Assembly: GCF_029962835.1 (NCBI RefSeq)
Contig: NC_080574.1
Location: forward strand, 22,542,001-22,606,000
DNA from: Magnolia sinica
Lineage: Eukaryota; Streptophyta; Magnoliopsida; Magnoliales; Magnoliaceae
DNA: 64,000 bases
Reading direction: 5' to 3'
The notes under the pieces were generated by a model. That model had not been told where the DNA came from, searched no databases, and worked only from the letters and a program-made list of their open reading frames with translations. Each line of letters begins with the position of its first letter. Within the stretch, counting starts at the first letter, position 1. Shown here piece by piece: positions 4,822 through 59,291 of this stretch. The translations under genes and the position numbers were made by a program.

Positions 4822-5016
4822 TGTGGCTTGTCACATGCTCTCATCCATGGATTTTAAGAAAATTCTTATCCTGGCTTTCCAATAGGCATAATTGGAGCCA
4901 TCAAATGGTAGAGGCCTAGTGACCGAAAGACTATTAAAATTTGACATCTTAAAAAGCTCAGATCGATTAGCTCAGAAAATTAATCCAAAAGAAATAAGAA
5001 TTAAAACGATCTATTA

Positions 5017-5031
5017 GGCTCTGATATCACT
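5017..5031 (-). promoter_or_regulatory. Primer-binding site of the copia element
   Basis: On the minus strand the bases right after the LTR read AGTGATATCAGAGCC. This closely matches the TGGTATCAGAGC motif that many plant copia elements use to pair with the 3' end of initiator tRNA-Met. It fixes the inner edge of the 5' LTR at 5032. Confidence 0.8.
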
Positions 5032-6098
5032 TGAAAAGGCCAAGCTAAAAGTCCGAGAGGGGGGATGAATAGGACTATGTCAAATTAAAAAATAAACTGT
5101 AAAATTTAAACAAATATAAATAAAGATAGCAATTAAACAATCCCACAATGCAGAAATGTAAAACAACCTCAAATATACAAGTATTAAGAGGTTGATACAG
5201 ATGTTGTTCTAAGGACAACCTTACACCAAAAACCAATGGCTTATGGTAGGACAACCTGATTCCTAGAACGGTCTATGTATCAAAATCTCAAACCGATACA
5301 GAAGAATAAAGAAATAAATAGCAAATAAATAAACCAAGCTATTACAACATTCTCACACTTGCATGAAAAGATTACAACATTCTCCACAAATGCATAAAAG
5401 GAAATTATAACATCCATAAAATGAAATAATCAATCAATCAATGACCACAAGACCAAAAATTATAGTGGTTCGCTTGTGCGTACACCAACTGTTTAGAAAA
5501 ACAGCCACACAACTACTCCACTCCTAATATCCTCACACAGTAGATATTAGTGTTCACTAAGAAATAGGTTTTTCAAAGTTCACCTAAAACCTTCACAATT
5601 GTGTCTTTCATGTGGGCTTACACAATTCAAAAATCCTACACGCTGAGTTTTCTAGATCACCTTAGACAAACCAAAAGAAAGAGATTTTTCTAGCACTATC
5701 TCAAAGAAACCAAAAGAATGAATTTACAAAAACTGTAAAATACTTATCTAGATATTCTCCTTTTTGTTGTAGCCCGGAAGAATCAATTTAGAGTAAAAGT
5801 TCAACGTAAATGTTCAATGTTCAAACTCACTTATGAAATGGTTCTAAGTTCTAAATTGATTTTAAATTAAAATCACCTTGGGCTAGCTTGATTTGATTTT
5901 GATTCCAAGAAATGGAAAAACTTCAATCCCTCTTTCAAATAAGATTGGAATGTAGAAAATCAAAATCAAATACAAAGAAAGCTAATTAAAGAGAATATTA
6001 AATGAGAACTAAATAGCTTAAGAATATCACTAACTTATCTCTTAGAGTGGTGTCTTGATCTTGCTTGAATTGGATATCAAACTCTAAAATTCGTGCTC

Positions 6099-6108
6099 TA
6101 TTTATAAG
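6099..6108 (-). promoter_or_regulatory. TATA box of the copia LTR promoter
   Basis: The minus strand reads TTATAAATAG here, a canonical plant TATA box, inside the 5' LTR and directly downstream (in element orientation) of the CGACYRGTCG array. U3 would therefore be about 6110-6967 and transcription would start near 6070. This is inferred from motif and position only. Confidence 0.6.
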
Positions 6109-6124
6109 TACAGAAATCGCATCT

Positions 6125-6500
6125 TCAACTAGTCTTGAGGTCGGTTCGACTGGTCGAAGGACCAACAAACTTTTGAAAATTTGAGCGCAATAAGATAAGA
6201 CCGTTCCACGATTGGTCGAAGGACTTGCTCGACCGGTCGAGTGGCCTCCACGACTGGTCGAGTCCTATCCACGACTGGTCGTGTGGGACTCATTTTAGTT
6301 GCTGGACTTTGAGTCGAGCCTACAGGACTGGTCGATCACTGTTCACACGACCGGTCGAGCAATCTCCAGGATTGGTCGAGGCAATAACAAAAAATCCCAA
6401 AAATAAGTAACAAACTTAGGACTGGTAGATGATTTCTTGGACTAGTCGAGCCAGTGCTAGGACTAGTTGAATATAGTCTAAGACTAGTCAAAAAAACAGT
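6125..6500. repeat. Array of about 12 palindromic CGACYRGTCG motifs in the LTR
   Basis: Imperfect copies of the 10-base palindrome CGAC(T/C)(G/A)GTCG, often followed by AG, recur every 20-40 bases. Examples lie near 6148, 6207, 6229, 6251, 6272, 6323, 6351, 6372, 6452 and 6488. Spacer sequences differ from one another, so this is not a simple tandem repeat of a longer unit. The array sits immediately upstream of the LTR TATA box in element orientation. Two more copies occur at 80-111. Confidence 0.8.
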
Positions 6501-6967
6501 CTATGCACTTATAAAATGACCCAATTAAATTATGTGTTCAAAATGACCTATCCTATGGTCAATCTAGGGTCATCCATACCTTATAAGCGGTGTATGAACA
6601 TTGAATCTTCTTTTTTGCTTCAGTTGATAGTTGTTCTTTAAAGTTCACGAAGCTTGAGATCTTGAATTTAAAACACATTGAAGCTTGAGCTTGAGGTACT
6701 TGAGTTGTACTTCACCTTGAGCTTTAAGTACCAAAATAAAGACTATTGTCTTGCCTTAAATAAAGCTTTGAAACCTTGAACTTTGAAGCTTGAAAGAGTG
6801 AGCTATCACATGGTGTTATACTTGAACTTGTATATCTCTTGATCTTGCATTTGAAATTCTTGAGGTAAAGACCTTTGATCTTGTACATGAGATGCACAGT
6901 CTTGAATATGTAGATGAGCTACACAAGACACAGATTCCAAGAGGTTTTGGCACTACAAAATTTGACA

Positions 6968-8516
6968 ATCATAGGAGCTAGAAAACATAGCACTTACAAG
7001 GGCAGAGATTGATTTTCAATGGACGGCTAAGATGAACAGAGAGCTCTTCACACAGATTCATCCAGCTATGAGGGAGAATCTCTCTCTTTTTGGAAAGGAA
7101 AGAAACACACATTTTCTCCGTTTTCAGAAAGTGGTTACACATGGCCTAACTACGCTCGTGTTTGTGGTCGCATGAGTGCAAGGCATCGGGTGAAACTGGG
7201 TAGGGTTTGCATGGCTTTGGGTCCTCCAACATGTGAACGGTTTCGATCTTCAAATGGGATGCTGATGGTGGGCCACAACTCGCTGAGAACGAACTCTATC
7301 CATCCGTCTGTTTTGGCGGGAGGAGAAATTTAAAAAAAAAAAAGAATTTCTTTCCTCTTTTGCAGCTGGCGGGTCAACTGAGCTTGACCAGCTCCTACGG
7401 TCCAGTGCACAGCGAGTGTGCACTTGTTGTGCACATGCACCATGTGAAGTGGGGTCCACCATGAGGATTTCAACTAATCCATTCTGTTCATCTAATTTGT
7501 CAGCCCATATTAGGGCCCAATCTAACGAATGAGGCAGATCCAAGTCTTAGGTGGACCATATCATCTGAAACATGGCCATTAAGTGCTAGTTATCATTGAT
7601 TCAGGGTAGAACATGGTACACACCTGTGATAGCACCGTTCATCTAGCTAGTGAGCCACCCAGGGCCACTTTCCATTTTAAATTATATAATAGAAATATAT
7701 ATACATATTTGTTTAGTATAATATATTGATAGTTATTGATAAGTATTTATTTACAATCACTAATACTTATAATGTATGTTTGTGATGCATATATAGTATT
7801 TAAAAACTAACATTATGTGATATATATTTTATATATATGGTATAATATGATAATATATAGTCAAAATTATAAAATGTAAGTGTTAATTAATATACTTCAA
7901 TTATATAATAATGTGTTGGTATACGATTTATTTTATATATAGTTTAAGTAATATAAAATAACTAAGATACATAATTTGAATAATTTAAGTAACATATGTA
8001 TTATTACAAATGATTATAAAAAAAAAAAATCATTTTATATTATAATATATATATATATACACATTTAAAATGAGCTATTATGGATCAACTTTTAGATAGG
8101 CCACCCATATGACTTTGAGTATAGCTTAGGTGGGCCTCATCTGGTGGTCAGTCAGATCATGTTTGTCCTCTAACATTCCCAGATTAATATAGATATACTT
8201 AGACCGACACTCTTAGAATCCAATGGATTCACAGTTGCCTCTGCCTACTGAATGGCGGGTTTTGATGATTCAGCTTTTGATATTGACAACGAACACTTGG
8301 TTTATCTATCATAGTGATTGAATTCTAGAATAGACCTCTCTTGTGATGTGATGCTCTGTTCTGGAACATAATGGATGGATGACATAATATACGAGCGAAG
8401 TTTACCCTTGACGGTGAGGGTAATTGGTCCGCTTAAGCTAGATTTGTACACATACTAAGTAGGGTTACTCGATAGCATCTGAGTACTAAAAATACGAGGT
8501 GTTACAGGATAGTTAT
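6968..8516. other. Gene-free stretch between the two LTR elements
   Basis: No supported gene. About 7445-7590 looks like one arm of the GTGGACCAC repeat family (GGCAGATCCAAGTCTTAGGTGGACCA-type words). About 7680-8065 is extremely AT-rich with TATATA runs. The last stretch, up to about 8503, ends in GAGGTGTTACA, like the terminus of the solo LTR at 12803. It is probably the end of an older, truncated LTR of that family. Confidence 0.6.
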
Positions 8517-9208
8517 TGTTGATGCAAAACTCTAGTTCACCCTCGCCGAGCTCCGAACACTCGCACCGAGCCCTATAAGCCTGCATAGGTGAAGGAAAAA
8601 GGAGACCCTGGCTAGAGCAGGGGACCCTCCGATGCCACAGTTAGGCTAGGAATCTGGGTCTAAGTAGTGTGGGTAGGTTTCAGATGAGAGATTTTGCGTA
8701 CCTATCTCTACACATGAGTTTCCTATTTATACCATTTGATTTGAGTTAATGTGCCTGTCATTCTCGGCACGATCTTTGCCACTACGCGGAAGCTAAGCGT
8801 TTGGAGGTGTGGGCGGTTATCCTTAGATCGCACGCCAGATTTTACTCCATACGTGTGTCACTGGAGTTGATCCCTGAACGTATTCGTAGGCTTCATCTCC
8901 GTCTGAGCCAACCCTATGGTTTGAATCCATACACAGGCCAAGCCTCGCCGCTTGTCGGCAGGGATTGGGTCGGAGCTAATAGTGGAAATGTGTAATGGCT
9001 TCTTCCGGGTTCCAAGCTGATGTGAAAGCTCTACAAAAGAACTTGGAAGTTAAACCTTGGTTATTACCAGACTAGGTTAGACTAGCTGTCGCTGCCGAGT
9101 CAAGGTTCAGCTCATCGGCTTTGGTCGTTCGGCTTGTTATGGTAAGTTCACTTAGTCAGTCGAGCCGAGTAAATTCCTTCTGAGGTCGGTTCATATTTTC
9201 CCATAACA
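8517..9208 (-). repeat. 3' LTR of the Tat element (left copy)
   Basis: It starts TGTTGATGCAAAA and ends CCCATAACA, giving TG...CA ends. It is preceded by the target duplication GTTAT and followed inward by a polypurine tract (minus strand GTATGGGGCTTT at 9209-9220). It is about 80 bp shorter than its partner, which carries an internal duplication. Confidence 0.9.
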
Positions 9209-9509
9209 AAAGCCCCATACTCTCTAAGTTTGAGCTCAGAATCAGAGAGTAAATGTCTGGGGAAGTGAACCGGCACTCTCTTCTTAATGATGAGTCGGCA
9301 AGATTGAAACGAATTATTGTGATCGTTACTCTCTGCGATTAAGGCATTGTACTTCGATGGCGACCTTTCGGGTATGAGCCTGTGGTAGATGAACACGTGG
9401 CGGCAGTTAAGGATTTGAATCATCTGAGCGAGTGGAATGTTGTTGCGTGGATGCCGAGAGATGGAGGGTCACGCGTGCTTTAAATGCCATTCATTGCTGG
9501 CAGCATATG

Positions 9510-12500
9510 TGTAACGTCCTGGATTTTCACTGTTTTGGATTTCCAAAAATCCTTGAATTTTTTTAATATAATTAACTTATATTATCACTTACTGACCATT
9601 AATACTCAATGTTAGTTTATACATGGGTGGTACCAGTAAAGAATCGCACAAGTCCAATTAATCAACAGTAGGAAGCCAATGAATCCGCCCGATCACTTAA
9701 ACACCGAATTTAGCCACATAATTTACTCACACATAGCCTAAATCTAACTGACCTACCACTGATTAATCAAGACAATCATAACTAAATTAAAGGATCTACT
9801 CGAAGCCGAGTTAGATAAGGCCCGGATCTTGACTAATAGACCAAATCAACCCCGTTACTCTTTTAACTTAAAACCGACAGTTTAGAGTAATCATGACCAA
9901 ATCTCCACTTTCACTAGTTATAAATAGGCCACACTATGAACACAGTTAATCCAAACCCTAATCATTGCTCACAAGAAATCTTAATACCTAATTCATTCCA
10001 AAAATACCCTGATTTTTCAAACAAGCTCTAAACCGCTCATTAGTGGGCCACTAATTCCAAAACTATAGAATAATGCCCGTCTTACTAGGCTTGACATCCA
10101 TCGCCGGAGTCGGACCTGGGTAGTGTTCATAACGGCTCAACTTGGGCCGAAAGCTAAGTGCTTACAACGGGCGAATCCCCTAAGCCGAAATCTGAAACTT
10201 AAGTGAAATAGACATTTTGCTCTTTCGTGAAGTTGTGGCTTTTGGACCGTCAATCCACAACCAAAATTGGAGTACCGATTAATTATATTTCCCTGCTCAT
10301 ATCCGTATAGCCGCGGCCCCAATCGACCATTGGTGACCGTTAAACAGATTTCTAATCATATTCATTGATTGACAAATCCAAATGGTAGGCCAATCAGATC
10401 CATACATAGATCATCATTAGGGCTAATTACCCTACGGTGTATATCGACTTGTACACCCCATAATGGGCCCTAAAGGTTAGAAAAATTCTCCCATAGGGCT
10501 AGTATAGTAAAAACTCAATCATTGGGGCCATTTACACCAAATCTGGCACCATGTAAGGGCTTCATTTGGGCACCCCCTCTTCCCATACGAATTTGCATTT
10601 TCAAAGGAGAAAAAGAGGAAGAGAAAGAAAAAGAGAAGAAGAGAGAGTAGGGTGGGGAAGCTTTAGTGCTTCCCTTCATCGATTTCCTCCAATCAAAGCC
10701 CTAGCATCGATCACTTTCCTCCGCCGAATCCACCCCATTTGCGATTTGGAGGTAAGAAACAAACCTACTTCCTAACCTAGGTTCTTTCTAAAATGGATTA
10801 CATGAATCTCATATAGTTCTTGGTGTTTATATGAAAATTTGTGATTTTTCTCAAATCCCTAACCATACGAACCTTGCATCCCCCACAACAAGAGCAAGAT
10901 TCCCAAGTAATCACCATTCTTCTCCATATATACATTTTGTAAGCTAGGCCCTTGCATGTATCCTAACATGTGGGTGCATTTGACTCAGGACCTCGGAAAA
11001 CCCTCCCGCGAGTCCAACACCCATAGGACGATTCCGTAAGGCCTCGGCAACCTAAAAGTGCGAACCATTATCCCTAGGTGGCCAAGTACCAATTTTACGA
11101 TAAATTTAATGATTATAGATGTTAGATTGATGTACATGAGTAATTTACAAAAAATCTAGCTAAGAACTTACATGCTAGGTCTACCCAACACGCATGCGAT
11201 GATAAATTGATGTTTGAATGGTCTTCAATTCGTTTGTGCATGAAATTAGCATTGCATGTTCACTTCACATCCAATTTTTTCTTGATCTTCTCTATAGCAT
11301 GTATGATTGCCTTATTTCTTGTTGGATTTTTGTACTAAGAGTGGTATGTTATCCTTTGCCTCTTAGGAAATTCGGCACCACACGCACACACGTTTGACTT
11401 ATGCTATTAAGAGTAGTTACATTTATTTAATATCCTGAAATTTTATGCTCGATGTATTGTACGCATAATTCCACCTGTATTAGAAGATGATCTCTTAATT
11501 GCTAGATGTGTTATTGAATACAACCCACTTTCTGGGTTGGTCAAGGAACTGAGATTTGTGAAGGTGGTTCCATTGGTTGGACCACCCTGTGATTAGACTA
11601 ACTGATTTGGGCGGACACGAATGGGCGACAGTAGTGGGACTACATGGGTTGCTTGCACCCGATGTTGTGCGTTACGTGCTCACCTGAACTTAGCAATCTA
11701 GTCCACCAACTGACTAACCATGCTTGTTAACCATGTTTGCTCATGCCTATTTGGAACTTAGAACACCCCTCACCCACTAACACCCACTGACAATAGCTGA
11801 AAACTGATCCATAATCTCGTGAACCAGGCATGGTGGAATGGGACACTGTATCTGAGCTGTCGGTCTACACTGGGGTGATAAGCCTCCCCGTAGTGACCAT
11901 GAGCGATCCTGCTTCCCAGCACTCCCCACGTGCTTACAATCGAGGGTAGGGACCCCGATGGGATCAAGAATCGTGGGGTCCTGGCCGCCTCGTGCGTTGA
12001 GGGGTCCGGGCCTCACAAATGGATGAGGGCATTGATATCGTTAGGGTGTACCAGTTTTTCCAACCTATTGGATAAACAAAATTAACTAAATACTCGGCTA
12101 ATGTTATCCATGCATCGTATTAACTAGGATTTAGTGACTCGGCAGTTGAGGTCGCAATGAGAGAGTGTTGGTCATGCGCGACCGTGAGACGAAGTCGTTC
12201 GAGGGAGTGTTGTGGGTGAGGTCATGCATCATACCATAATTCAAGCATACGCATTTAATAAGATTAGTTAGAGATGTGTGAATTTATGTTTTTCATTAAA
12301 TTCATCATGAAATTGTTATTTGATATAACTTATGGCTGATAGCACCCACTGAGTTAGTTACTCACTCCTACTCTAGGACGGTATTTTAAAACACCAACCA
12401 GACACGTCATTAGATGCAGGTGAGGCGGAGCTCGATGAGCTGAGCGGGGTGAGCATGGATGAGGAAGAGGAGCTTCCCTGCTTCCAGACTTTTGGCGGAT

Positions 12501-30040: not shown

Positions 30041-30429
30041 GGCCCTGTTTGGTAGACACCTAAAACTAAGTTCATCTCATTTTAGTTAATAGTAGTTATG
30101 TATTAGAGATCTTCTAATACATAGTTACTCTTAACATGAGCTCAGAGTATATTTCTAAGAGATTGAACAATTTATCATGAATACTTTCAAAACCGCAACA
30201 ATTTCAAACATTTATCTTTTTCTGAAAAGACTCAGAACCTGTTTGGTAGACACCTAAAAACGAATTGATCTCATTTTAGTTAACAATAATAATGTATTAG
30301 AGATATTGATCTCTCTAATACATAATGAGTTCATGTTAACAATGATTACATATCAGAGAGATCAAGTTCACATTGTTACTGTTAACTAAAATGAGATTAA
30401 CACATCTTTAGGTGTCTGCCATACAGGGT
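30041..30429. mobile_element. Two PIF/Harbinger-type MITE copies side by side
   Basis: At 30041 a copy starts GGCCCTGTTTGGTAGACACC after TAA (30038-30040), the target duplication typical of PIF/Harbinger. It runs past its palindromic centre (about 30115) and is then cut off near 30150. A second, complete copy (about 30235-30429) starts CCTGTTTGGTAGACACC and ends GGTGTCTGCCATACAGG. Its two arms (TTTAGTTAACA / TGTTAACTAAA) form an almost complete palindrome of about 195 bp. Confidence 0.75.
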
Positions 30430-34840: not shown

Positions 34841-35335
34841 GGCTTCAGTGGATCCATGATCCACTAGGTTTTTAGATCACTGACTGTGGGGCCCATCTTG
34901 ATGTATTTACCTTACATCCATGCCATCCACCCATTTTTCCAGATCGATTTAGGTCATGGGGACAAAAATGAATCAGATACAAATCTCAAGTGAACCACGC
35001 CACATGAAACATAATTAATTGAATACACACCATTAAAAACTTCTTGGAGTCTAGGGAATGTTTATTTGCCATCCAACCTGTTGATAAGGCCGAAAAGACC
35101 TGGATGAAGGGACTATTCAAATATCAGCTTGATCCAAGCCTTTTGTGGCCAATAAGAAGTTTTTAATAGTAAATCACCCCTGTTTCTTGTAGTGTGGTCC
35201 ACCTGATATTTTGGATCTGCTTCATTTATGGCATTGTGACTTACAATGAGCTTTCAAAACTGATGGACGGCGTGGATGTAAGGTACATAGATTACGGTTG
35301 GGCCACAGCCGGTGGATCTCAGATCCACCGAAAGC
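34841..35335. mobile_element. Palindromic MITE, family A, complete copy
   Basis: The left arm (TGTGGGGCCCATCTTGATGT ... TACATCCATGCCATCCACC) and right arm (GGACGGCGTGGATGTAAGG ... GGTTGGGCCACAG) are inverted repeats of roughly 200 bp around a unique centre (CCATCCAACCTGTTGATAAGG). Each end carries its own small hairpin, GTGGATCCATGATCCAC on the left and GGTGGATCTCAGATCCACC on the right. Other copies in the window share this plan. No coding capacity; superfamily not assigned. Confidence 0.8.
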
Positions 35336-35389
35336 CCCTTTCGGTCGGTGCGGTTTGGCTGTGACCCAACACCAGCCAGCTGGTGTCAA

Positions 35390-35830
35390 AGCTGTGTGTC
35401 CTACCATGGCACATGTATTTCATCTACAGTGTCCATCCATCTTTTTTAGGGCACCAGCAAGACGAAAAAATTAGATGGCACATGTATTTCATCTACCTTG
35501 TCCATCCATCTTTCCAACTTATTTTAAGGCACCAGCAAAACAAAAAAAGAAATCCAAAACTAAAGCGGACCACGTGATAGAAAATAGTTGGGATTGGACT
35601 CTTGCCATTGAAAACTTATCGAGGTAACAGAAGTTTTAGGTTAAGCATGTTTTCCGTTCATCCGGGTTTGTATCCTTATAAACAGTTGGGATGACAAATA
35701 AACATTACTGTTTTTTGTGGTGTGGTCCACTTAATGTTTTGACGTGTCATGGTAAAATGGATGAACGGAGTGGATAAAACACACGCATCGTATGGAGCAT
35801 TGATACCAGCTAGCAGCCAACTTCGCAGAG
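35390..35830. mobile_element. Palindromic MITE, family A, copy with internal duplication
   Basis: The sequence follows the family A consensus (CATGTATTTCATCTAC...GTCCATCCATC, then GCGGACCAC, CCGTTCATCCGGG, ACAAATAAACATTAC, GTGGTGTGGTCCAC, ATGGATGAACGGAGTGG). A 69-bp block beginning ATGGCACATGTATTTCATC is repeated directly at 35406 and 35475. Confidence 0.65.
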
Positions 35831-36477
35831 TGACCGAAGTAAATTTGGATGTTCTTAGATGGTGTAAATTATTTGACTGGATCCATCCGTTCATCTGATC
35901 GTTATGGTGTGGTGCATCTGTTTGACGCCTTAGATTTCATACACAAGCCAACTGGCACATAATTCCGGACTTTAACACTTTCTAAAGGAAAAAAGGCATT
36001 TAGGTAATTTCACAGCTAGTACGAATTTACAATCGTGGAGCCGAGGATTTTGCCGTAAAAAGCCATTCGCTACCGCACAAGTAAAGAGTGGTGGGCCTAA
36101 TATGGTCCAAGCCTTTACACTCATACACAATCTTATCCATTCAATTTGTGACCAACAAATAGACGGTTGAAATAAAAATCGTCAAAATTAAATCTTAAAT
36201 AGCTGATATTAGAGGGTTAACATCATCCCATCAGTAAGGTGGGCCAGGATAAGACAGATCTTGATTGAGGTCACGTGAACGGTGGATGAAGTCACCACCA
36301 TTTAACAAAGGGTGGAAAATAATCGTAGCTTAAAAGTGAGAAACGTAAGAATCAAGATCCCGTTCGTTCACTCCGCCTCTCTCCCGTCTTTGAAGTCCCA
36401 GTTTTCCCACGCTGAAAGTGTCGCAAAAGCAGCCAATTGGTTATATCGTCCGACCCCACTCCTTTGACGTGCTTCAA

Positions 36478-36480
<3 letters not shown>

Positions 36481-36517
<37 letters not shown>
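36481..36517 (+). repeat. (CT)n microsatellite in the beta-galactosidase promoter
   Basis: An uninterrupted CT run of about 37 bases lies about 150 bp upstream of the TATA box at 36669. CT/GA tracts upstream of plant genes can bind BBR/BPC GAGA-type factors; a role here is inference. Confidence 0.85.
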
Positions 36518-36519
<2 letters not shown>

Positions 36520-36668
36520 CCATTCATCAACTTGTCCACCAATCACTTTCTATTTTTCATCAAATGCAAGAGCTTAAAAGGGGAAAGAAATTACAGCCCA
36601 CATCATAAACCTTCTAGATTAGACTCCCTTTTCCCATATTTGGAGGTTTCACTAACCTTCTACAGGCT

Positions 36669-36676
36669 TATATAAA
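36669..36676 (+). promoter_or_regulatory. TATA box of the beta-galactosidase gene
   Basis: TATATAAA lies 108 bp upstream of the chosen ATG (36777), which would put the transcription start near 36700 and give a 5' UTR of about 75 bases. No other good TATA box lies between here and the ATG. Confidence 0.65.
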
Positions 36677-36776
36677 CAAGACCCACATATGTTCTCTCCA
36701 CGTACGGGTGTCCACGAGCCTTGTGTCGATACCAGATTCATGTGGGTCTGATTTTTTAGTTGGGGAGTCGAGGAAG

Positions 36777-36942
36777 ATGGGTATGTGGCTATTGGCTTGG
36801 TGGGCCATTTTTGTGATTGGAGGTAGACCCGTCGTAGGATCAGACGTGGTGTATGATGGACGGTCACTCATCGTTAATGGGTCGAGAGCAATCCTCTTCT
36901 CCGGTTCTATTCACTATCCTCGTAGCACCCCTCAGGTATGTG

Positions 36943-36984
<42 letters not shown>

Positions 36985-39900
36985 AAACTATATGTATTGT
37001 ACACGTGGCACATTGTTATGATGATCCAGACCATGTAACCTGCGGGATCCGCCCCCTGATTACATAATCCACACCTTACAACTAATGAGCGTTTTGATTT
37101 ATCCGTCGATGTTTGATTGTACCCCACGGTTAGGATCGTCTAAATGGCTTGATATTCGGTCTACGGCTAATTCACTACTGGACCTCTTGAGTGAACGGTT
37201 AGGATGGGTTGATGGGAATATTATCTCTTATGGAAGTATTTTAGCAGAGTTAGAGGAAAACATCTTCGGCAAGTCCGTTAGTTATTGGTTTCTTCTTTTT
37301 TTTAGAAGGAGAGAATAGGTTGGACACCTCCCCAACCGTTTCCTAAACGGTGGTGAATCATACACCGTACACGCTTGTACGGCAATCTAAAATGCCCACA
37401 TTGCTTGTGGATGGACAAGAAATGGAAAATCACGATGATGGTGACCATCTGATGTTTCCAGTATTTTCGTGCCTCTTGGTTGTGTGCCACACACGTGGCA
37501 CGTGTGTATGAGATCTGAACCAGACATCATGTGGATTCTGCCATGGATTGACCACTAAACGAATTTTTCTTTGATTCTACTATCGTAACCATCTAATAGA
37601 TGGGCCTTTTCTCAAACAATAAGAACCGTTGCTGGTTTTTGTTTTCTAGAATTCATTTGTATGCCACCAAGTAAAGGTCTAGAATTTCTATCAACACTGA
37701 TTTTTGGGTCATGGCACAATCACTATTGGAAGCACAGAATGGACGGTTCAGATCTGATCCATGTGAGCCACGTATCAGAACGTCATGGAGGCAAGGGAGA
37801 ATTTGCTCTCTTACTTCTAATCGTTCATTTTACAGCAACTAATTGAATGGATAGGATTGTTTGATCAGAGGGATTTTGGAGATATACTCCACCAATGTGC
37901 CCCACAAATCAGATGGTGTGGATAACTATACCTGTTTACTACATGTGATCAGGATGAAGTATTCAAACCTTATTTCTCAGAGTATGGTAAGCACGTGAGA
38001 TGCACATGGGAGAATTATAAGATTGGCCAATCAAGTTGAATTATGGAGCACGTGCCGTGTTTTCAATTATTATTTTGTGGGGCCACCTTGATGTATGTTC
38101 CTTACATCCATGCCGTCCGTACGTTTTTACAGCTCATTTTGTGGGATTATACCAAAAATGAAGCAGATCCAAATCTCAGGTGAGGAAACATTGGTATTGA
38201 CCATTAAAAACTTCTTGTGGGTCATAAAAGTTTTAGATCAAGATGATGTTTTTTGGGTTCATTCATCCAGATCTTTGTGACATTATCAACAGGTTGGATG
38301 ACAAATAAACATTCCGATGGGCCCCCATGAAGTCTTTACCGGTGGGTATTCAATCACCACTGTTTCCTCTGGTGTGGTCCACCTGAGACTTGGATCTTCT
38401 TAATTTTATATTATCATCCCTAAAATTATCCATCAAAACAGATGGGCGGCGTGGATGTAAGACATATACATCAAGGTGGGCCCCACACTCAGGGATCCAG
38501 CGATCCAAGAAGCCGCCTAATTCAACCACCAACCAACTTTATTTGTCACCTTCCATTTGAAAGCCACCAAAGGATTTGTAGCATTACTATCTTTGCTGGT
38601 TCTATTAACCATACCACCATCCATGGTAAGGTCCACTGTATGGACTGTCCAGATCCACCATCTCTCCTGCCATGTGTACGGTGGATGTTGACCTTCTATC
38701 ATATTATGATAGTCCAGCTCTATCATATCATTTCCCATGTGATGCATGCATGCATGCACTAACTATAATTCAAATGTTGAAAGGTTAATATATGGAATTG
38801 AGAAATCAAAGACAGAAAACAATATCTTTGTTAAGAAATTAAATACAAGTATTTATTTTTCTGGCTACTGTAACATTAATCACTGTGTCCCTTGTGTTTT
38901 ACTTATGACATTTATAACCTTTTGGGCCTTTTAGATTCACAGTCAAAACAGCTGTTTGATGTCCAAATCCTTGTTTCGATTCCAAACTATGGTTTTGAAG
39001 CCTGTTTGGATCACACCCACAATCGTCGAATTGAGGACCCACAAACCAATCTGATTTGTTTTTCAGGAAATGATGATTGCAGTACCCTCCCTCAGTTGAG
39101 AGTCTACGGTTTAGATGGATATGATCATGGGTTTGTGTATATCTTGAATCAATTTCTGCTTCTAGTGGGTCCCACTAGATGGACATTCCTGATTGGAAGA
39201 TAATCTTGCTATGTGTAATGTTGCAAGGTGGCTCTACATTATCTGGTTCTTCTGGTTAGGTCCATCGGGTCCGGGACCAATACTGATTCGGCTTAGGCCG
39301 TAGAAGAGGCCTGTAGATTGGGCCCAGGGCATGGGTTTCTATCAAGGCCCAAGTTCAGCCCAAGAACAGGTCCCATGTTAACTTGTGAATTGGCCCTGAA
39401 ACCAAAGGCTCAATTAATTCAGTTGGATGGACCTGGTTCTGGATTTTAAGCCGAGTTAATAAGTAGGTTGGGCTTAATCTGGACCTGCCTTTTACTCTCC
39501 GAGGGAAGTGGATTGCGTACTTAGCATGCCAGCGTACTAAGTAAACCCTCTTAAGGCCCACCATAGATGTATGTCTTATCCATATTGTCCATCTATTTTT
39601 TCAGTTCATTTTAGGGCACGTGCCCAAAATTGAATCATATCTAGAGATGATCTCCACCGTTGTAACCTTAGGTCCCATAGTGATGTTTATTTGTCATAAA
39701 ATGCAAATATTAGCTTGATCCAAAACTTCTGTGACCTTAAGAAGTTTTCAATTGTAAGCATTTAATTCACAGTGCTTCTTGTGCTTTGGTCCACTTGAGC
39801 ACTGGATATGCTTAAGAGTTCTTACTCGTCCCGTTGGTAAACTCACAAGAGTGCCAACACCAGGTACTCATATGTGGTGAAATTCTATTATGATATAAGT

Positions 39901-42900
39901 GTATGTGAAATTATGCCTTAAAATGAGCCAGAAAAAATGAAATGACAATCTAGATAAGATACATACATCTAATGAGGCCCGGAAAGTTTACTCACTGCAC
40001 AATAACATGCTAGTTACTCAGTATGCAATTCATACTCCATTTTAAGTCAATTTCTTTCTTGTGGTGTGTATTTAGATGTTTTTTGAGAAACCTTGGTTGA
40101 TTCTCCCTTAACAAATTACAAGATAGAGCGTTAAACAAAGTTAATAGCAATTTTGTAATTAAATTCCTTTATAAAAGTTACATCCAAAGTCCAAACACAT
40201 CAAAATGTACTTTTTAAAGAGATACGACCAAACTCAAACCATTTTGTCTATTTTGATTCATGGATTGTAAAGGCACGGCCCGTGGTTGAACAGTTCCAAC
40301 CGTTGATGTTAGGCCCGTGAACTAGGAAACTCATTATACTAGAAAAATCCTACCCCTTCACCAGGTGGGCCACAAATAGGCAATTACGAAATAACGTACA
40401 TCAATTGTTCACATTCACCCAGAAAAGTTCAAAATATTTTATGCAAGGGATCTTTTAATCTGGGCCACTTTTGATGCGTTGACCATCCACAATGAGGTCC
40501 ACCATATGGACGGTGCAACTTCCACTAGCACAAAGTTGAATTTGTCAGAACATTTACTGTTCGAATCATTCAAGGAAGTTACTTGAAAATTAAAAAATTG
40601 AAATTAAAATAAAATATGATCCAAGAAACTAAGTTGGGATTTGCTAGGTTTTAAAAACTAAAAGTTCAATAAATGGCTCTTCTGATACCTTGTTTGTCGT
40701 GCCACATGTCACATGGGGATGGAATTCCTCATGAAAGAAAGGTGGTATGGCCCACCAATTGCCGTGGGATAGACGTTCACGATTCCCTTTGTTTAGGCTT
40801 GGATTTTGGATACAGAGATTTTTTTCTCCCCCACATGTTGGCTTGCTTGCAGGAGTAATCTATCTCGTGGACCCAACGTGTACGCCCGTGGACTGTAAAT
40901 ACAAAAGGCGGCAACGGTCCAGGGATCCACCGACCACCGACTGTGGGGCCAGCTTGATGGCTGTGGTATATATCCATGCCGTCCATCCGTTTTTACAGCT
41001 CATTTTAGTGCATGAGATCAAAAATTAAGCAGATCCATATCTAAGGTGGACCACACCACAGGAAAAAGTGGCAATTGACCGTTAAAAACTTCTTAAAACT
41101 TCTTTTGGACAACTTGTATTTTCCCTTCAATCCAGGTCTGTGTGACCTTATCAACAGGTTAGCCCTATGATTTTTTTTTTTAATGGTGGGTGTTTAATCA
41201 CCATTGTTTCCTGTGATGGTCCACCCGAGATTTGGATCTGCTTCATTTTTAGGCCATGCCCTAAAATGAGCTGGAAAAATGGGTGGACGGTGTGGATATA
41301 CAGATGCAATGGATACAAGTCTTTCAATCCAGAAAATAATGGCCCACCTATGGTGGTACCCGCTGGAGTAGGATTTTGTGCGTGTTCCATACCTCCTGTG
41401 GAGTTACTTTTTTATTATTATTTCACACACAAAGACGCATGCTATATGACACACGTGTGCAATAGCTGACCATTCCATTAGATGGGCCTCACTTTTTAAA
41501 TCTTCTCGCATAAAAATCAAGCCGTTCCACTTCTGAGGTGGGCCACAGCGTACAAAACAAATAGAAGGATTGCCTGTCTATGGATAGGGGTACACGTACG
41601 TGTGAACCTTAATTTATTGATTTTTTGTCGTAGGTGTATTGACTTGTGGACGGTGTATATTTTCAGATGTGGCCATCACTTATAGCCAAAGCCAAGCAAG
41701 GAGGATTGGATGTGATTCAGACGTACGTTTTTTGGAACAAACACGAGCCTGCACAAGGACACGTGAGAGCCTTCCCTTTCTTTCTTCTTTTCTTTACAGT
41801 GATGAATGCTCATCTGGACCGTTCATTAGGTTCAGTCAAATCCTCAAGGGCAAACAGCTCCTTCATTAGGGAAATTTTCATGGTAACTAGTGAAGGGTGG
41901 AGTGATCCAAATGGACGGTACTGATTGGGAATGGCCACATAAGTTCAATTGTTTGATCTGTGGAGCCCACTCTGATGTGAAAGTGCCATCGAACCCGTTC
42001 ATTAGATGTGGTCCCCCATGTCATGCCTAGGTCCAAAACTCCAGCCTGATGCATGGCTCAGGTAGGCCACATCAAAGGAAACATGGAACATGGGGGGGTA
42101 TGGGGACATTGGGAAGGGAGATCACCACCCTACAAACTTCCGAATGGAACATGGATCCACCGTACTTTGAAGATTCAATCCAACCCATTCATCAGCTACC
42201 CCTCACCACTAATGTACAGAAGATTCCCAAACGCAGATGGACAGTCCAAACTGAGTTTTGTATCAAGATGATTCTTCTGTTGTACGGTGATCATGAAGAA
42301 GCATACTAAATCCATGGGTTGGATTCTACATAAACATCACTTATCCGGCCCCACACAGATCTAACGTATGGTAATTACCATGCATTCGAATGCATGTGAC
42401 CATTCCCCCATACGAAGAAAATCCTCGGATCGCGCATGCACTGAAAGGTACGTGAGTGAAACGGGACGTCTTCATTCGGTTCAATGACTATAATACATTG
42501 GGATTGGGTGTGTTTCCTTCTTTCTATTTTTCAGTACAATTTCAAGGGAAGATACAATCTGGTGAGATATTTAAAGGAAGTTCAGGCACAAGGGTTGTAT
42601 GCAACCCTTAGGATCGGTCCTTACATCGAGAGCGAATGGAGTTACGGGTACACCTCATTCCCTCTTTCTTACTTATCAAACCAGTTATGTAGGGCCCATG
42701 GTTTGATGATCCAAACCGTTAATATGGTGGGCCTTACTGTTGATGAGCGATTCCCCAGAGATATTCCTAATTTGAAGTTGGAAGATTTTGGTGCTGCTGC
42801 CTACAAGTAGACGGTAGATAGAAAATTGGAGCATGGTTCCACATTCAACTGAGAAAAAGGCAAATATTAAAAGGTTTGTTGTTTCAGTGGTACATCTGAA

Positions 42901-51109: not shown

Positions 51110-53180
51110 GTTTGTTGGGTTATAATTCATTCTCATTCATTCATATTCTTGTAAAAAACAAGCTCCCATCTATAAGTTGGTAAGAAAATATATATATTTT
51201 GGGTGTTTCTAGTTGTAGCATTTGATGTCAGCCATATGTTGTAGAATCTGCCTAGTTATTTTGGGTGTTTCTAGTTGTAGCATTTGATGTCAGGGGTGTT
51301 AATAATGATAAAGTGAGCTGTCGATCAAGTGGTTAAGATCGTCCCGTTTAGTGAGATTTTTAGATTATGGATAATCCAAGAGATGTCCCATCTATTGAAC
51401 GGTCTAGATGGGAACTCACATTCATGTGGTGATTATGCTGGAGATAGTTACTTCATGTGGTCGGAAGGCGAATGGTCGAGGAATACAATGCAGCATAGCT
51501 GTTCTTGAATGCAAGCTCTAAATGGCTGAGAAATATACAGTGCTTGGCCCAAATTACTGCTAGTTTCAGCTGGACCAGCATTTTGATCAGTGATCCAGAC
51601 CGTTGGTCTGTTGCATCCCACCACTGGTAATCAATGTTACAAAAGAGATCACCTGCGCTACGATCATCTCTGTTGATTTTTCATCTTGGAAGTGGGTGGT
51701 TTTAAAGAAAATCCCAACCAACATTCTGCGTGCATTTGTAAAAGATTCCAGCTGTTGGATGGATGAGATTGTTTGGAGGTCATTTTTGGTCCATCACACA
51801 ATCATGGTGGGGTCCACCAGATGTGTATTGCTAAAAGGTGGGCCCCTTTATGGGATCGGTCTCAATCAAGCAGTGGGCCCAGATATTTCACCCCTATGTC
51901 CAGCCTGCAGGCCTGTAGTCCCAACCCATTCGAAATTGTCAAGCTGGTGGGGCCCACCTGCCACGCAACAATTGCAAAAAAAAAATTTCTTTTTAGAGAA
52001 TATTAGTCTCCTAGAATAACCCCACCTGTTCAAATGACCAAAACATCATCCTAACCGTTGGAATGGATTACACGGCTAATGGTCCATTAGGAATTCTCCC
52101 TTATTCCACTGCAAATTCCCTTGTGGAACCTAGGTGGGCCACCCTTAGATCATGTTGGAACACTTCATACTAGTTGTTCACAATGAATTGTATAAATAAG
52201 CCCATAATCAGTATGATAGGGTGATCAGTGCCGTCCAATTAAGGACCTACCAATTGAACAGGAAACCTTAGCCTCTGCAGACCTTTACTCGGACGGCTTT
52301 GATCATCTAATCCAATCATGTTGATTTTTGGGCCATTATACGCGGTGATGAACCCAACCATCCCAGGTCCATTAGTGATCATTTATCTGGATTACACGAG
52401 TCGGACAGATCCAATCGAAACCATCCAAAGTCTCATGCTTCCATGTTCTAACCATTTGATCAGTGGTCGTGATTTAATGGTCAGAAAAACATCAACAATA
52501 GGCAAAAGTGCCCATTTATTGGGCTGTTGAGATCGTATTGCAGTATTGTTTTTTTTTTTTCCTATACCTGTGGAGCCTACAATTTGAACGGTTTGGATTA
52601 GGAGTACTTTACTAAGAAGTGCGCAAGATCGTAGCCATTCCCATGCATATCACCTGGACCAGGAAATAGGCCGATCCTTTCTTCAGAAAGAAGCCAAGCC
52701 TCATATACCGCCTGGCCTACCCGATCAACGACCCGGATCTCGCACACCCTTGCCATGCTGGCAGACCGACCAGCCTGCGTGTATCATTCTGATCATACTC
52801 ACGAGTGTCGTGATGGGCCTCACTGCAGATGATGGATACCTTGAAAACCCCTCAAATTGAACTAATTCAATCCATCAAGTATTCAAGGCGAAGGAGACCG
52901 TCCAAGCTCAAGGTAAAAGATTCAAATGATAAACGTGTTGAAATATCCTACTAAAAGATATTTATGTCCGTAGAATCCCCCATCAACGTGAGCCCCATAA
53001 TATAAACGGTTTGGATCATTGATATATGACCCAGATCCAAAGGCTGAAGTCTCGACGTACCCTATTTGAATATGTCTAGATGTATTGTAACAGACCTCCA
53101 TTGCCCGCTCTCTCCGCTCTTCACAGACACCCGTTGGGAAGACATGTATTTTCAGTAGTCTTCCTTCCCAACTCAAAAAT

Positions 53181-53183
<3 letters not shown>
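51110..53183. other. Beta-galactosidase 3' flank and gene-free intergenic stretch
   Basis: A 35-bp direct repeat starting TTTTGGGTGTTTCTAGTTG lies at 51197-51231 and 51259-51293, probably within or just past the 3' UTR. About 51760-51965 and 52130-52840 carry GTGGGGCCCACC-type repeat words. No supported gene was found. Confidence 0.6.

Positions 53184-53224
<41 letters not shown>
53184..53224 (+). repeat. (GA)n microsatellite in the PPR gene leader
   Basis: A GA run of about 41 bases ends 69 bp upstream of the chosen PPR start codon (53293). Translated in frame it gives an RERERER stretch, which argues against the upstream ATG at 53080. It may be a GAGA-type promoter or leader element. Confidence 0.85.
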
Positions 53225-53226
<2 letters not shown>

Positions 53227-53292
53227 CTCTACTACCCTTTCTCTACGTTGGATTCGATTTCTGCAATTTCCATAGAATTTCTCGATCGACTC

Positions 53293-55227
53293 ATGTCGCC
53301 ATTTCCTTTCATTCCCACCCTTTCAGTTCGAGTTTTTTCAGCTCCATCGACTCAACTCCATCCTTTCCACAGAATTTCGGTCCTACTCAAATCCCAATCT
53401 CCATTCATTTCACTCTCATTTCCTCACCCGTTTGGATCACCTTCTTCGAGTAATGTAAGCTTACCCAAATCACAATCTCCATCAATCTCACTTCCTCTAA
53501 TTACACCATTCTATTTCTTGTTTTCTTCTCTACTCTCATTTTCAGTTCCACCCCATTGTTCCCAAACACAATTACATCAACCCACGTCGCCGTGTTATAC
53601 TTTCACTTCGATCCCAACTATTCGATCGCAACCGTCAATCCCATGTCGCACTTTCGGTCTGGACTTGAATTTACCCACGTCACAATTCCCATTTACTGGA
53701 ATTCATATGAGCCGGGTTCTTTCGCACTTGTCTTCTTCGGAAGCGGAAACTCTCACTTCAGATCGATGTGGTGATGATAGTTCGAGTCTTACAACCGATG
53801 CTGATAAAATGTACAAATCCATTATGGATAATTGTAATTATGCGGATCTAAGAATGGAGGCTGCCCTTGTATTAGTTGGTGTAAAATTGACCCCTGAACT
53901 AGTCGATGAAATGCTTCAGAGACTCCGTTATGAGGAAAAAGCTGCCTTCAGATTTTTCAGGTGGGCAGGCCATCAAGAAGGCTATGCCCATCAGCCAAAG
54001 GCTTATACCGACATGATCGATATACTATCAAGCACGAAATACAAAGCAAAACAGTTTGGCATTGTCTGCGATATCTTGGATTACATGAAGAGAACGAACA
54101 AGGATTCAGTGCCCATCGAGATTCTCCTCACGATACTGAGAAAATACACTGAAAAGCATCTGACCCATTTGCAGAAATTCACGAAGAAGAAGCGGATACG
54201 GGTGAAGACGCAACCAGAAATCAATGCATTTAACTTGCTGGTGGACTCTCTATGCAAGTGCAGTCTTGTTGAAGAGGCTGATGCCATGTTTATTAAAGTG
54301 AAGGATAGGCTTGGCCCAGATGCGAACACATACAATATTTTGTTCTTCGGCTGGTGCCGAGTGAGAAACCCAATTAGAGGAATGAAAGTCTTGGAAGAAA
54401 TGATTGAAATGGGCCACACGCCGGAGAATTTCACTTACAATGCTGCAATCGAAACATTTTGTAGAGCAGGGATGGTGTCAGAGGCATCCGAACTCTTTGA
54501 GTTCATGCGTACAAAGGGTTCGACCATGTCTTCTCCTACTGCCAAGACATACTGTATTATGATAGTGGCACTTGCTAAGTTTGACCGAATGGATGAGTGT
54601 TATAGGCTACTCGCTGATATGAGAAATAGTGGGTGTCTTCCTGACGTGTCAACTTATAAGGAACTGATCGAGGGGATGTGTTTGGCAGGAAAAGTTGAGG
54701 AAGCTTACAAGTTCTTGGAAGAGATGGGAAATAAAGGCTACCCGCCCGATATCGTTACTTATAATTGTTTCTTGAAGGTTCTTTGCAATCTTAAGAGGTC
54801 CAATGAAGCATTGAGGCTTTTTGGGAGAATGGTTGAATTGGGCTGCGAGCCCAGCGTGCAGACATATAATATGCTAATTACAATGTTTTTTGAGATGGGT
54901 GTGCCAGATGGAGCATTTGATTCATGGAATGAGATGGATAAGAGGGGCTGCTTACGGGACACCGATACTTACTGTGTGATGATTGAGGGGTTGTTTGGTA
55001 ACGATCGAGCAGAGGACGCTTGCTTTCTTTTGGAAGATGTAGTGAACAATGGGCTGAAATTGCCATATCAGAAGTTTGACAACTTCCTGATGCAGCTTTC
55101 GAAGATGGGTAATCTCCATGCTATCCATCGGCTTTCAGAGCATATGAGAAGGTTTTATAACCCTGCCATGGCTAGACGTTTTTCTATTAGTGAAAAGCGG
55201 AAGAGCATGAGTTTGAGAAGGAAGTAA
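53293..55227 (+). CDS. Pentatricopeptide repeat (PPR) protein, P class, probably mitochondrial
   Basis: An intronless ORF of 644 codons. Tandem PPR motifs fill residues about 310-590, for example TYNILFFGWCRVRNPIRGMK, TYKELIEGMCLAGKVEEAYK, TYNCFLKVLCNLKRSNEALR and TYNMLITMFFEMGVPDGAF. No E, DYW or SMR domain follows, so it is P class; such proteins bind organellar RNA in a sequence-specific way and stabilise or process it. The first 60 or so residues are rich in Ser, Pro, Arg and Phe with few acidic residues, as in a mitochondrial presequence. The basic C-terminus (FYNPAMARRFSISEKRKSMS) resembles, from memory, Arabidopsis At1g73400. ATG 53293 is chosen because the frame upstream runs through the GA microsatellite. 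The low-complexity N-terminal 170 residues are longer than usual, so a later start cannot be excluded. Confidence 0.92.
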   Translation: MSPFPFIPTLSVRVFSAPSTQLHPFHRISVLLKSQSPFISLSFPHPFGSPSSSNVSLPKSQSPSISLPLITPFYFLFSSLLSFSVPPHCSQTQLHQPTSPCYTFTSIPTIRSQPSIPCRTFGLDLNLPTSQFPFTGIHMSRVLSHLSSSEAETLTSDRCGDDSSSLTTDADKMYKSIMDNCNYADLRMEAALVLVGVKLTPELVDEMLQRLRYEEKAAFRFFRWAGHQEGYAHQPKAYTDMIDILSSTKYKAKQFGIVCDILDYMKRTNKDSVPIEILLTILRKYTEKHLTHLQKFTKKKRIRVKTQPEINAFNLLVDSLCKCSLVEEADAMFIKVKDRLGPDANTYNILFFGWCRVRNPIRGMKVLEEMIEMGHTPENFTYNAAIETFCRAGMVSEASELFEFMRTKGSTMSSPTAKTYCIMIVALAKFDRMDECYRLLADMRNSGCLPDVSTYKELIEGMCLAGKVEEAYKFLEEMGNKGYPPDIVTYNCFLKVLCNLKRSNEALRLFGRMVELGCEPSVQTYNMLITMFFEMGVPDGAFDSWNEMDKRGCLRDTDTYCVMIEGLFGNDRAEDACFLLEDVVNNGLKLPYQKFDNFLMQLSKMGNLHAIHRLSEHMRRFYNPAMARRFSISEKRKSMSLRRK

Positions 55228-55674
55228 AGCTCGAACGAATTCAAATGAAATTGTTGAAGCATTTCCAGTCTAGAAGGTGGAAACTGGAAAGGACTAACAA
55301 AGACATGTTCTCATGCACCTTTTGACCACCAACTCTGTCGAAAATAGGAATGGTTAGCAGCTTCCTGTTGCAACTAGCACCTTTTGGTTATCTTTTATTG
55401 AAAAGGCAACAGTTGATTGAGCCATATACACTGTCATCAGATAAATTCTGATCTTTCAGCAATCAGTGTTCCTCTGTTGTAACATAGCAGGTAGCGTCTT
55501 CTTCTTCTTCTCTTTTTTAACAAAATGATACTCATTCTGTTTAGGGAATCTTACCTCAATTAGTCTTACCATGCCCAGCCTCTTTCATTTTTTATGTACT
55601 TCATTAGAACTACCATAAGGTAGATCTGAGCCCCTTTGCGGGGATATTTGCAAAGGTTTCCATTATAATTTTAT
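55228..55674 (+). other. 3' flank of the PPR gene
   Basis: It is presumably the 3' UTR and nearby intergenic DNA, with a CT-rich run (CTTCTTCTTCTTCTCTTTTT) at about 55497-55517. No gene or clear poly-A signal was identified. It ends exactly at the palindromic element. Confidence 0.5.
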
Positions 55675-57399
55675 GGGAATTTTACAAATTACTACCTCAT
55701 TAATACGGTATTAACATCCCAGTACCTTTTTCAAAAAGGGTTTCCATAAGCTGCACCATTAATGATAGTAATTATCATCCGATTACCTTCCATTAGACTT
55801 CTTAACCGAAGTTGGGTTGGGTCGTGCGAGCAAGAGGTCGGCAGCTCGGGTGGTCCCCACCATGATGTTTATGTAAAATCTACTCTGACCACTAGGTGCA
55901 TCACCCTATGCTAGGCCTGGGGCCCAAAAATCGGCCTCATCCATGATTAAGGTGGACCATACGATTGGAAATAGTGTATAGGACAACGCTCACCTCCAAA
56001 CTATTTCGCTTTGTGTGGCCCACCTGAATCACGGATAGGTTGGATTTTTGGGCACTAGGCCTAAATTTTGGTTTGGAATCTAATGGTTGGAGTGGTTTTT
56101 ATATAATCATCACGGTGGCCCTATAAAAATCAAGGGTGGACGTCTTTATCCCAACTGTTTCCTTTGGTGTGGCCCACCTGAATCACATTTCAGCCAATTG
56201 TTTGTCTCTGGGACTAATGTGGGATTACACATCTAATTGTCAAAGTGGACCTCGCATACACATTCAGGTGGGCCCCTTGAAAAATAAAGGGTAGGCATCC
56301 CATAAAGTGTTTTTTTTTTCTATTTTTATATTTTAGGAGAATGTATCAAGTCCAACCAGTCAAACCACAAGTTATGGTCCACCAAGTAAACAACTTCCAA
56401 CCTATTAATCAAATGCAAAATCCCACCCTTCTAATAGGTTGGCCCCACAACAAGGATGGCCTATTGAAAAATCATCCCCATCTAATCATCCAGTTGGCCA
56501 GACCATAGAAAACAATTTTTACCACTAATAAATAGAAAAATACAAGTACGATCTAAAAAATGAGTAGATGTGACTAATTTTTGCATGAAGAAATCATCAT
56601 GGTGATTCCAACCTATCGGACGGGTTGGATGTTGCATGCATATGAAAAGTTGGAAAGTATCTTTCAGATGAACCGTAATTTGTGGTCCAATTGGTTGGAC
56701 GTGAGACCATTTCTTTTTTAAATTTATCAGCAAAAATTTAGGAACGGCTAAGAGATGATTGCCCGCCATTAATTTTTTAAGGGGCCCACCGTAATGTATA
56801 TGTGAAATCCACTCTAACCATTGGATGTGTAATCCCACGTTAGGCCCCGGATTTAAGAAAAAAATTAAAAAAATTAAAAAGGTTGACTTGTGATTTCAGG
56901 TGGGCCACACCAAAGGAAATAGCTGGGATAGAGATGTCCACCCTTGATTTTTACAGGGCCCACCGTGATGATTATATGAAAACCACTCCAACCATTAGAT
57001 TCCAAACCAAAATTTAGGCCTAGGACCCAAAAATCAGACCTATCCGTGATTCAGGTGGGCCACACCAAGGGAAACAATTTGGAGGTGAGTGTTGTCCTAT
57101 ACACCGTTTCCAATCGTATGGTCTACCTGAATCATGGATGAGGCTGATTTTTGGGCCCCTGGCCTAACATGGGGTGACACACATGGTGGTCAGGGTGAAT
57201 TTCACATAAATATCACGGGTCCAACCAGAGCTGCCAACCCCTTGCTCACATGGCCAGCACCAACTTCCGTTACGAAATCTAATGGAAGGTACTGGGATGA
57301 TTATTACCTAATTAAAATGGTAGCTTATTGAAAACCTTTTTGAAAAAGGTACCATGGTGTAAATACTGAATTAGTGAGGTAGTAATTTGTAAAATTCCC
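55675..57399. mobile_element. Giant palindromic (foldback) DNA transposon, MULE-like ends
   Basis: The left end (GGGAATTTTACAAATTACTA) is the reverse complement of the right end (TAGTAATTTGTAAAATTCCC). The match continues inward through CCTTTTTCAAAAAGG, CCTTCCATTAGA, GGTGGCCC and GGATTACACATC blocks to a centre near 56540, so the arms are each about 800 bp with almost no loop. Flanking 9-mers TAATTTTAT (55666-55674) and TATTATTAT (57400-57408) agree at 7 of 9 positions, a probable MULE-type target duplication. No transposase is encoded, so it would be non-autonomous. Foldback MULEs of this sort are known in plants; assignment to MULE is inference from the GGGAA ends and the TSD length. Confidence 0.85.
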
Positions 57400-57408
57400 T
57401 ATTATTAT

Positions 57409-58984: not shown

Positions 58985-59291
58985 TGTAGAGAAAAAGTGA
59001 GTTTATCTCATTTTAGTTACTCCTAATTATGTATTAGAAATATATTTGTTTTTGGTAGTAATGATTAAATTTAATCTTGATAACCAGCAATCGTAATTAT
59101 GTATTAGAGATCATGATTGCTGGTTATCAAAAATACTTTTAATCCTTACCAAAAAGTACTTAGAGATCATGATTGTTGGTTATCAAAAATTATTTTTGAA
59201 TCCTTACGAAAAAGAAATATAATCTCCAATACCTAATTACGATTGACTAAAATGAGATGAACTCATTTTTAGGTGTCTACCAAACAAGTCC
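58985..59291. mobile_element. PIF/Harbinger-type MITE (same family as at 30041)
   Basis: The right end reads TTTTTAGGTGTCTACCAAACAAGTCC followed by TAA, the mirror of the CCTGTTTGGTAGACACCTAAAA terminus at 30041. Both arms carry CTCATTTTAGT / ACTAAAATGAG and ATTAGAGATCATGATTG blocks; one GAGATCATGATTG(C/T)TGGTTATC block is duplicated. The left terminus is eroded. Confidence 0.7.

Follow-up and report, generated by a model that had tools for sequence, protein, structure and literature searches.

The analyzed stretch of Magnolia sinica DNA (C2:22542001-22606000, 64,000 nucleotides, hereafter the window) carries an open reading frame of 715 amino acids on the plus strand at 53080-55227, which is identified as a PPR gene by its Pfam PPR_2 match (E = 2.4e-62). 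A palindromic element of 1,725 bp occupies 55675-57399 and starts 447 bp after the end of this frame, so that the gene lies upstream on the same strand, as the first-pass annotation of the sequence had placed it. The interval between them contains ATAAAT at 55441 and TTGTAA at 55477, which are candidate mRNA 3'-end motifs. The location of both candidate motifs before the element suggests that the PPR mRNA probably terminates upstream of it. No paralogous empty site was found for the insertion, the 475 bp upstream of the element having one match in the genome. At the other end of the window, open reading frame pieces at 192-4605 on the minus strand resemble, as judged by eye, a decayed Copia-type retrotransposon.

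Structure of the palindrome

The left end of the element, GGGAATTTTACAAATTACTACCTCA, begins at 55675 and its reverse complement finishes at 57399; the termini are GGGAATTTTACAAA at one end and the reverse complement of GGGAATTTTACAAA at the other. When 55665-57408 is compared with its own reverse complement, a single continuous inverted alignment is obtained (1,798 columns, 75.4% identity, E = 0.0). We call such an alignment unbroken, meaning that it is one continuous alignment with no split. The near-complete palindrome of about 1.7 kb that had been read from the letters is therefore real, with exact coordinates. Alignment of the two halves gives arms of about 820-860 bp and leaves about 60 bp at the center (56500-56556) without credible pairing, close to the 800-bp arms with hardly any loop described earlier. 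The inversion extends well beyond the outer 100-150 bp, since the inner arms, taken by themselves, are still matched to one another in a whole-genome search (64%, E = 1.1e-16).

The two arms are unevenly alike along their length. In the outer 500 bp their identity is 76-94% per 100-bp window, with one 50-bp bin as low as 70% when gaps are counted, and from about position 600 inwards it is 56-70%. For the window element, denoted W, the identity of its own arms is 0.87 at positions 101-500 and 0.66 in the inner arm, whose best same-side identity to another element is 0.80. We accordingly distinguish a left outer arm of about 500 bp (55675-56174, plus strand) and a right outer arm (56900-57399, minus strand) from a left inner arm of about 360 bp (56175-56536, plus strand) and a right inner arm (56537-56899, minus strand). 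The site patterns described below suggest that the outer layer has been re-equalized, with almost no memory of side in the subfamily, and that the inner layer is old and retains such memory.

Each arm also carries an additional smaller hairpin, at 55857-56118 in the left arm (70% complementary) and at 57014-57167 in the right one. Repeats inside the arms, together with a sequence that consists mainly of inverted repeats and can fold back, are the features of a foldback element. The element is bordered by the 9-bp target-site duplication taattttat (55666-55674) and tattattat (57400-57408), of which 7 of 9 positions are identical.

Family copies and target-site duplications

The genome searched for further copies comprises 1.84 Gb. 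A 443-bp arm query returned 4,039 first-look candidates, and the 40 sites that were scored, including both window arms, are 75-100% identical over most of the arm. The 22-base terminal pattern occurs exactly at 57 genome sites against 0 for reversed controls, and at 604 against 17 when up to two mismatches are allowed.

A set of 36 loci was assembled from the window element and 35 fetched loci. In 17 of them, the window included, the inverted alignment is unbroken over 1 kb or more, and no inverted alignment at E <= 1e-10 was obtained in four (L032, L033, L038 and L043). The 17 palindromic loci include L015, L017 and L020, three copies within 0.35 Mb on C15 that share their left flank letters and are probably local duplicates of one insertion. 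The earlier remark that such long arms are unusual because they are prone to loss is weakened by these results, as the arms are only about 75% alike and palindromes of this length recur in the family.

Both ends are recognizable by one rule in 15 of the 36 loci, and these copies span 1,254-3,209 bp. The 9-mers flanking them are 81% identical, compared with 42% in 210 mismatched-flank pairings, and at least 8 of the 9 positions agree in 7 of the 15 loci but in only 1 of the 210 control pairings. At the other flank lengths between 5 and 12 bp the identity is 44-51% (controls 37-41%), so that 9 bp is the only length with a peak. Six later loci show the same peak more weakly (61% versus 38% in the control), and in two of these six the 9-bp flanks are not duplicated (3 of 9 alike). 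The duplication of the window element is weak evidence when taken alone; the sharp family peak bears out the first-pass proposal of a 9-bp target duplication, and the terminal-motif sites supply copies with shared ends elsewhere in the genome.

The near-identical copies L014 and L048 might be taken for the outcome of a recent transposition. Their likeness extends through the flanks (89%), indicating a segmental duplication between C3:90.2 Mb and C2:75.5 Mb that carries one palindrome.

Coding capacity

The element encodes nothing recognizable. Its two central open reading frames have no Pfam match, no excess of third-position substitutions is consistent across 12 related copies, and indels break the reading frame among them. 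A coding center, represented by a frame of 137 amino acids on the minus strand (56482-56895), was rejected for the lack of a Pfam match and of a coding pattern in the 12 copies. Among the larger copies, L013 (2.8 kb) and L029 (2.2 kb) were rejected as coding members, their longest frames being 89 and 100 amino acids; the two-ended copy L035 (3.2 kb) lies outside this check. A terminal inverted repeat pair 9.8 kb apart on C16 (L044) was considered as an autonomous partner and rejected: the locus is a palindromic copy with an insert of about 8.5 kb in its right arm (1309-9832 of the locus). As judged by eye, the insert contains apparent LINE-type coding fragments.

No transposase was found in the family copies checked. 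The genome is rich in MULE transposase domains (1,104 candidates, of which 150 were scored), and 148 of the 150 matches listed were never closer than 94 kb to any of 155 family sites, a comparison that covers part of both sets, the element having thousands of candidates. The assignment to Mutator thus rests on the length of the target-site duplication, about 9 bp, and on the long terminal inverted repeats, both of which are typical of that superfamily. The family also resembles MITEs in being noncoding, in having many copies and in having inverted ends. MITEs are usually under about 0.8 kb, a size exceeded by the 1,725-bp element and by all two-ended copies.

Site patterns along the arms

Had the arms evolved independently after a single ancient inversion, the left arms of different copies should group together; equalization of the arms within elements should erase this memory of side. 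We therefore counted sites supporting the within-element, same-side and cross groupings; the counts are given in this order and are summed over element pairs. Positions 101-500 were taken as the outer layer and 501-862 as the inner arms. Eleven further elements were picked for near-full-length centers from 40 scored sites of a center search, and ten of them were used in the site patterns, L048 being left out as a duplicate of L014; these ten were chosen after the pattern had first been seen. L011, which is shorter, and L028b and L043 stand outside the site-pattern sets. Two choices favor same-side counts: all elements were oriented to match the window element, which should act on both layers, and the later elements were chosen by likeness to the center of the window element, which should act mainly on the inner layer. 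The pairs share members, so the pair counts are not independent.

For W, L009, L014 and L018 the counts are 75/21/16 at positions 101-500 and 19/206/9 from 501 on, with 2/6/6 in the terminal 100 bp; a later count of the outer layer again gave a within-element excess (67/24/17). In the ten later elements (45 pairs) the outer layer yields 443/373/380 and the inner layer 286/1599/197. The inner layer is same-side in all 45 pairs, and the majority in the outer layer is within-element in 19 pairs, same-side in 12 and cross in 14.

Across 16 elements (120 pairs), the same-side share of same-side plus cross sites stays at 0.47-0.55 in the ten 50-bp bins up to 500 bp, and then reads 0.79, 0.86, 0.83, 0.85, 0.94, 0.95, 0.95 and 1.00 in the bins beyond. 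In three of these elements, L049, L050 and L058, the outer arms align poorly (0.51, 0.41 and 0.36 identity between the two arms of the element). A recount with the other 13 (78 pairs) gives 0.47-0.60 up to 500 bp and 0.81-1.00 thereafter. Seven disjoint pairs, of which one contains L048 and one L049, sum to 79/44/40 in the outer and 40/274/25 in the inner layer. The seven well-aligned later elements, taken by themselves, give 160/171/141 in the outer layer, a star-like distribution without within-element excess, and 151/789/87 in the inner layer, where all 21 pairs are same-side.

A second subfamily (L021, L025, L027, L028a and L029) behaves differently from the window group. Same-side sites lead in every 100-bp bin (total 79/293/81), and a tree of 62 arms, from which L017 and L020 were left out as sharing left flank letters with L015, places its left and right arms in separate groups with support of 100 each. 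No renewal of the outer arms is thus seen in this subfamily.

The arms of W and L009 are 0.87 identical within the element and at most 0.84 identical to any arm of 16 other elements. Only W, L009 and L011 have mutually nearest arms among 25 paired elements (3/25). In the same 25, own arms are nearer to each other on average than shuffled ones (0.39 versus 0.46; 0 of 10,000 shuffles). The tree does not join the two W arms as sisters and places arms of L031 and L043 among them (support 80).

Interpretation of the two layers

The element is a noncoding, decayed foldback transposon, most likely Mutator-like. In the reading that we prefer, a nonautonomous foldback element, whose superfamily is most likely Mutator (MULE) and which was presumably mobilized by a transposase supplied in trans, inserted downstream of the PPR gene, generated a 9-bp target duplication and decayed afterwards. 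Its palindrome arose once, long ago, with the inner arms then drifting apart, and the outer 500 bp or so had been re-equalized by the time the subfamily spread. To this account as a whole, comprising insertion, decay, an old palindrome and later renewal of the outer arms, we assign a probability of about 0.8. It makes the element ordinary in kind, probably a Mutator-like nonautonomous foldback transposon, and leaves the two-age palindrome as the new result.

Across copies, the left and the right inner arm are each conserved as a distinct sequence, which supports a single, ancient formation of the full-length palindrome. Likewise, the near absence of left/right memory in the outer 500 bp supports the view that the outer arms were made alike again before the window subfamily spread. 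We infer that the arms renewed each other by gene conversion or template switching, a process that may have stopped where they had become too different. The renewal itself, which is deduced from the counts and was not directly observed, need not recur. One founder event would explain most of the data, and a few later events would account for W and its nearest relatives. A stronger version, in which long transposon palindromes persist through repeated arm-to-arm copying that is coupled to transposition by gap or hairpin repair and keeps the ends alike within the limits of sequence likeness, is at present a tentative proposal. If it were true, the outer 500 bp would continue to function as an inverted repeat, the interior would fossilize after falling below the likeness threshold, and the family would show both states, renewed in the window group and not renewed in the L021 group.

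The main rival to arm-to-arm copying is that both ends of the founder were replaced by the same end of about 500 bp, through an exchange of ends between elements; a related possibility is that slow change under selection conceals the former identity of the sides. The change at about 500 bp is abrupt and common to the elements compared, as expected from a single structural change in a founder, and the star-like outer counts of the later elements fit end replacement as well. Those counts, with the recount, made us slightly less inclined to recurrent renewal and slightly more to end replacement. The within-element excess of W, L009, L014 and L018 and the closeness of the W and L009 arms to each other argue against replacement, and the outer layer is rich in variable sites, so slow change by itself would not equalize same-side and cross counts. 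A two-layer pattern produced without arm-to-arm copying is less likely than not.

Comparison with known foldback elements

The comparisons below draw on portions of the papers cited. Assignment to another transposon superfamily (P or others) appears improbable. It would agree with the distance of the family from the MULE-domain matches listed and with the statement, in the part of PMC4079207 concerned, that different lineages may give rise to foldbacks, with some exceptions to a Mutator origin. The same source considers that most foldbacks seem to belong to Mutator, and the sharp 9-bp duplication is that of the Mutator/Foldback element Tm1 (PMC3169594), whose duplications are described there as 8-10 bp long and most commonly 9.

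Tm1, from the nematode Meloidogyne, is also comparable in its foldback form, composite inverted repeats and MITE-like members; it differs in that its repeats are on average 93% identical within an element and in having transposase-coding members (PMC3169594, in part). MuTAnT of Medicago truncatula, as portrayed in portions of PMC4486113, belongs to the Mutator superfamily and ranges from about 200 bp to over 1.6 kb. It has long terminal inverted repeats across a foldback sequence with a predicted hairpin, and a figure legend gives four similar segments in alternating orientation. Its type element is, unlike ours, 292 bp long, targets (TA)n and has a known transposase-coding relative, AutoMuTAnT; for the Magnolia element no coding partner was found, and the layers of its arms differ in age along their length. 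The Arabidopsis FARE elements are likewise plant foldbacks with long palindromic repeats, FARE1 being counted among MULEs in the same excerpts (PMC4486113). Tetris of Drosophila virilis, in the account that PMC4079207 gives in part, is a foldback without a known transposase. In two of the three complete copies its repeats cluster with those of the same element, which is read there as possible homogenization; it is an animal element with tandem subrepeats, and that portion of the account describes no inner/outer split.

The family described here is a large foldback transposon family identified in a Magnolia genome. Among other plant foldbacks, Hairpin elements have long palindromic repeats. The terms Mutator, MITE, TIR and MULE do not occur in the main text of the paper on the M. 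sinica genome (PMC10999834). The sharp two-age structure provides a natural way to test how the arms of very long inverted repeats stay alike, and bears on the persistence of such transposons and on plant sources of hairpin RNAs.

Possible role as RNA

The predicted RNA fold of the plus strand has a minimum free energy of -1021.5 kcal/mol, compared with a mean of -460.6 (sd 10.3) for 8 shuffles; its longest helix is 64 bp, and a strong fold is predicted on both strands. Such folding is expected of any palindrome of this kind. A functional hairpin-RNA locus, in which PPR read-through or an own promoter would yield a foldback RNA and hence siRNA or a young miRNA silencing the family or the PPR gene, could draw on this predicted fold, on the same-strand gene upstream and on the nearest precedent, maize Mu killer, an inverted Mutator derivative that can silence in trans (PMC3440606). 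We regard it as decidedly improbable. The arms, mismatched at about 13% of positions 101-500 and over 30% inside, are too diverged for perfect double-stranded RNA; the window has no Rfam match at gathering cut-offs; and the candidate 3'-end motifs precede the element.

Mu killer is similar, as far as the relevant portion of PMC3440606 describes it, in being an inverted Mutator-derived structure beside a gene with a proposed hairpin RNA. It holds an inverted part of the transposase gene, whereas the Magnolia element is noncoding, its central frames giving no sign of inverted transposase sequence. According to the same portion, read-through sense transcripts from the flanking gene accompanied failure to silence, and short antisense transcripts were present in plants that did silence, which speaks against the read-through route. 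Any RNA role of the Magnolia element would be incidental under the preferred reading of a decayed foldback insertion. The possibility of an isolated inverted duplication with no relation to mobile DNA has nothing in its favor beyond the palindrome itself and can practically be dismissed: copies sharing the ends and flanked by 9-bp duplications are dispersed through the genome, and the sequence just upstream has a single genome match.

Other inverted structures are present in the window. Inverted arms of about 430 bp (73%) lie 2.8 kb apart at 34875-38497, each with an internal hairpin, and possibly belong to another foldback family. Short inverted repeats of MITE-like appearance with CCTGTTTGGTAGACACC ends occur at 30043-30428, and two small palindromes of 278 bp (58993-59270, about 70%) and 332 bp (40969-41300, 69%) are perhaps other miniature elements.
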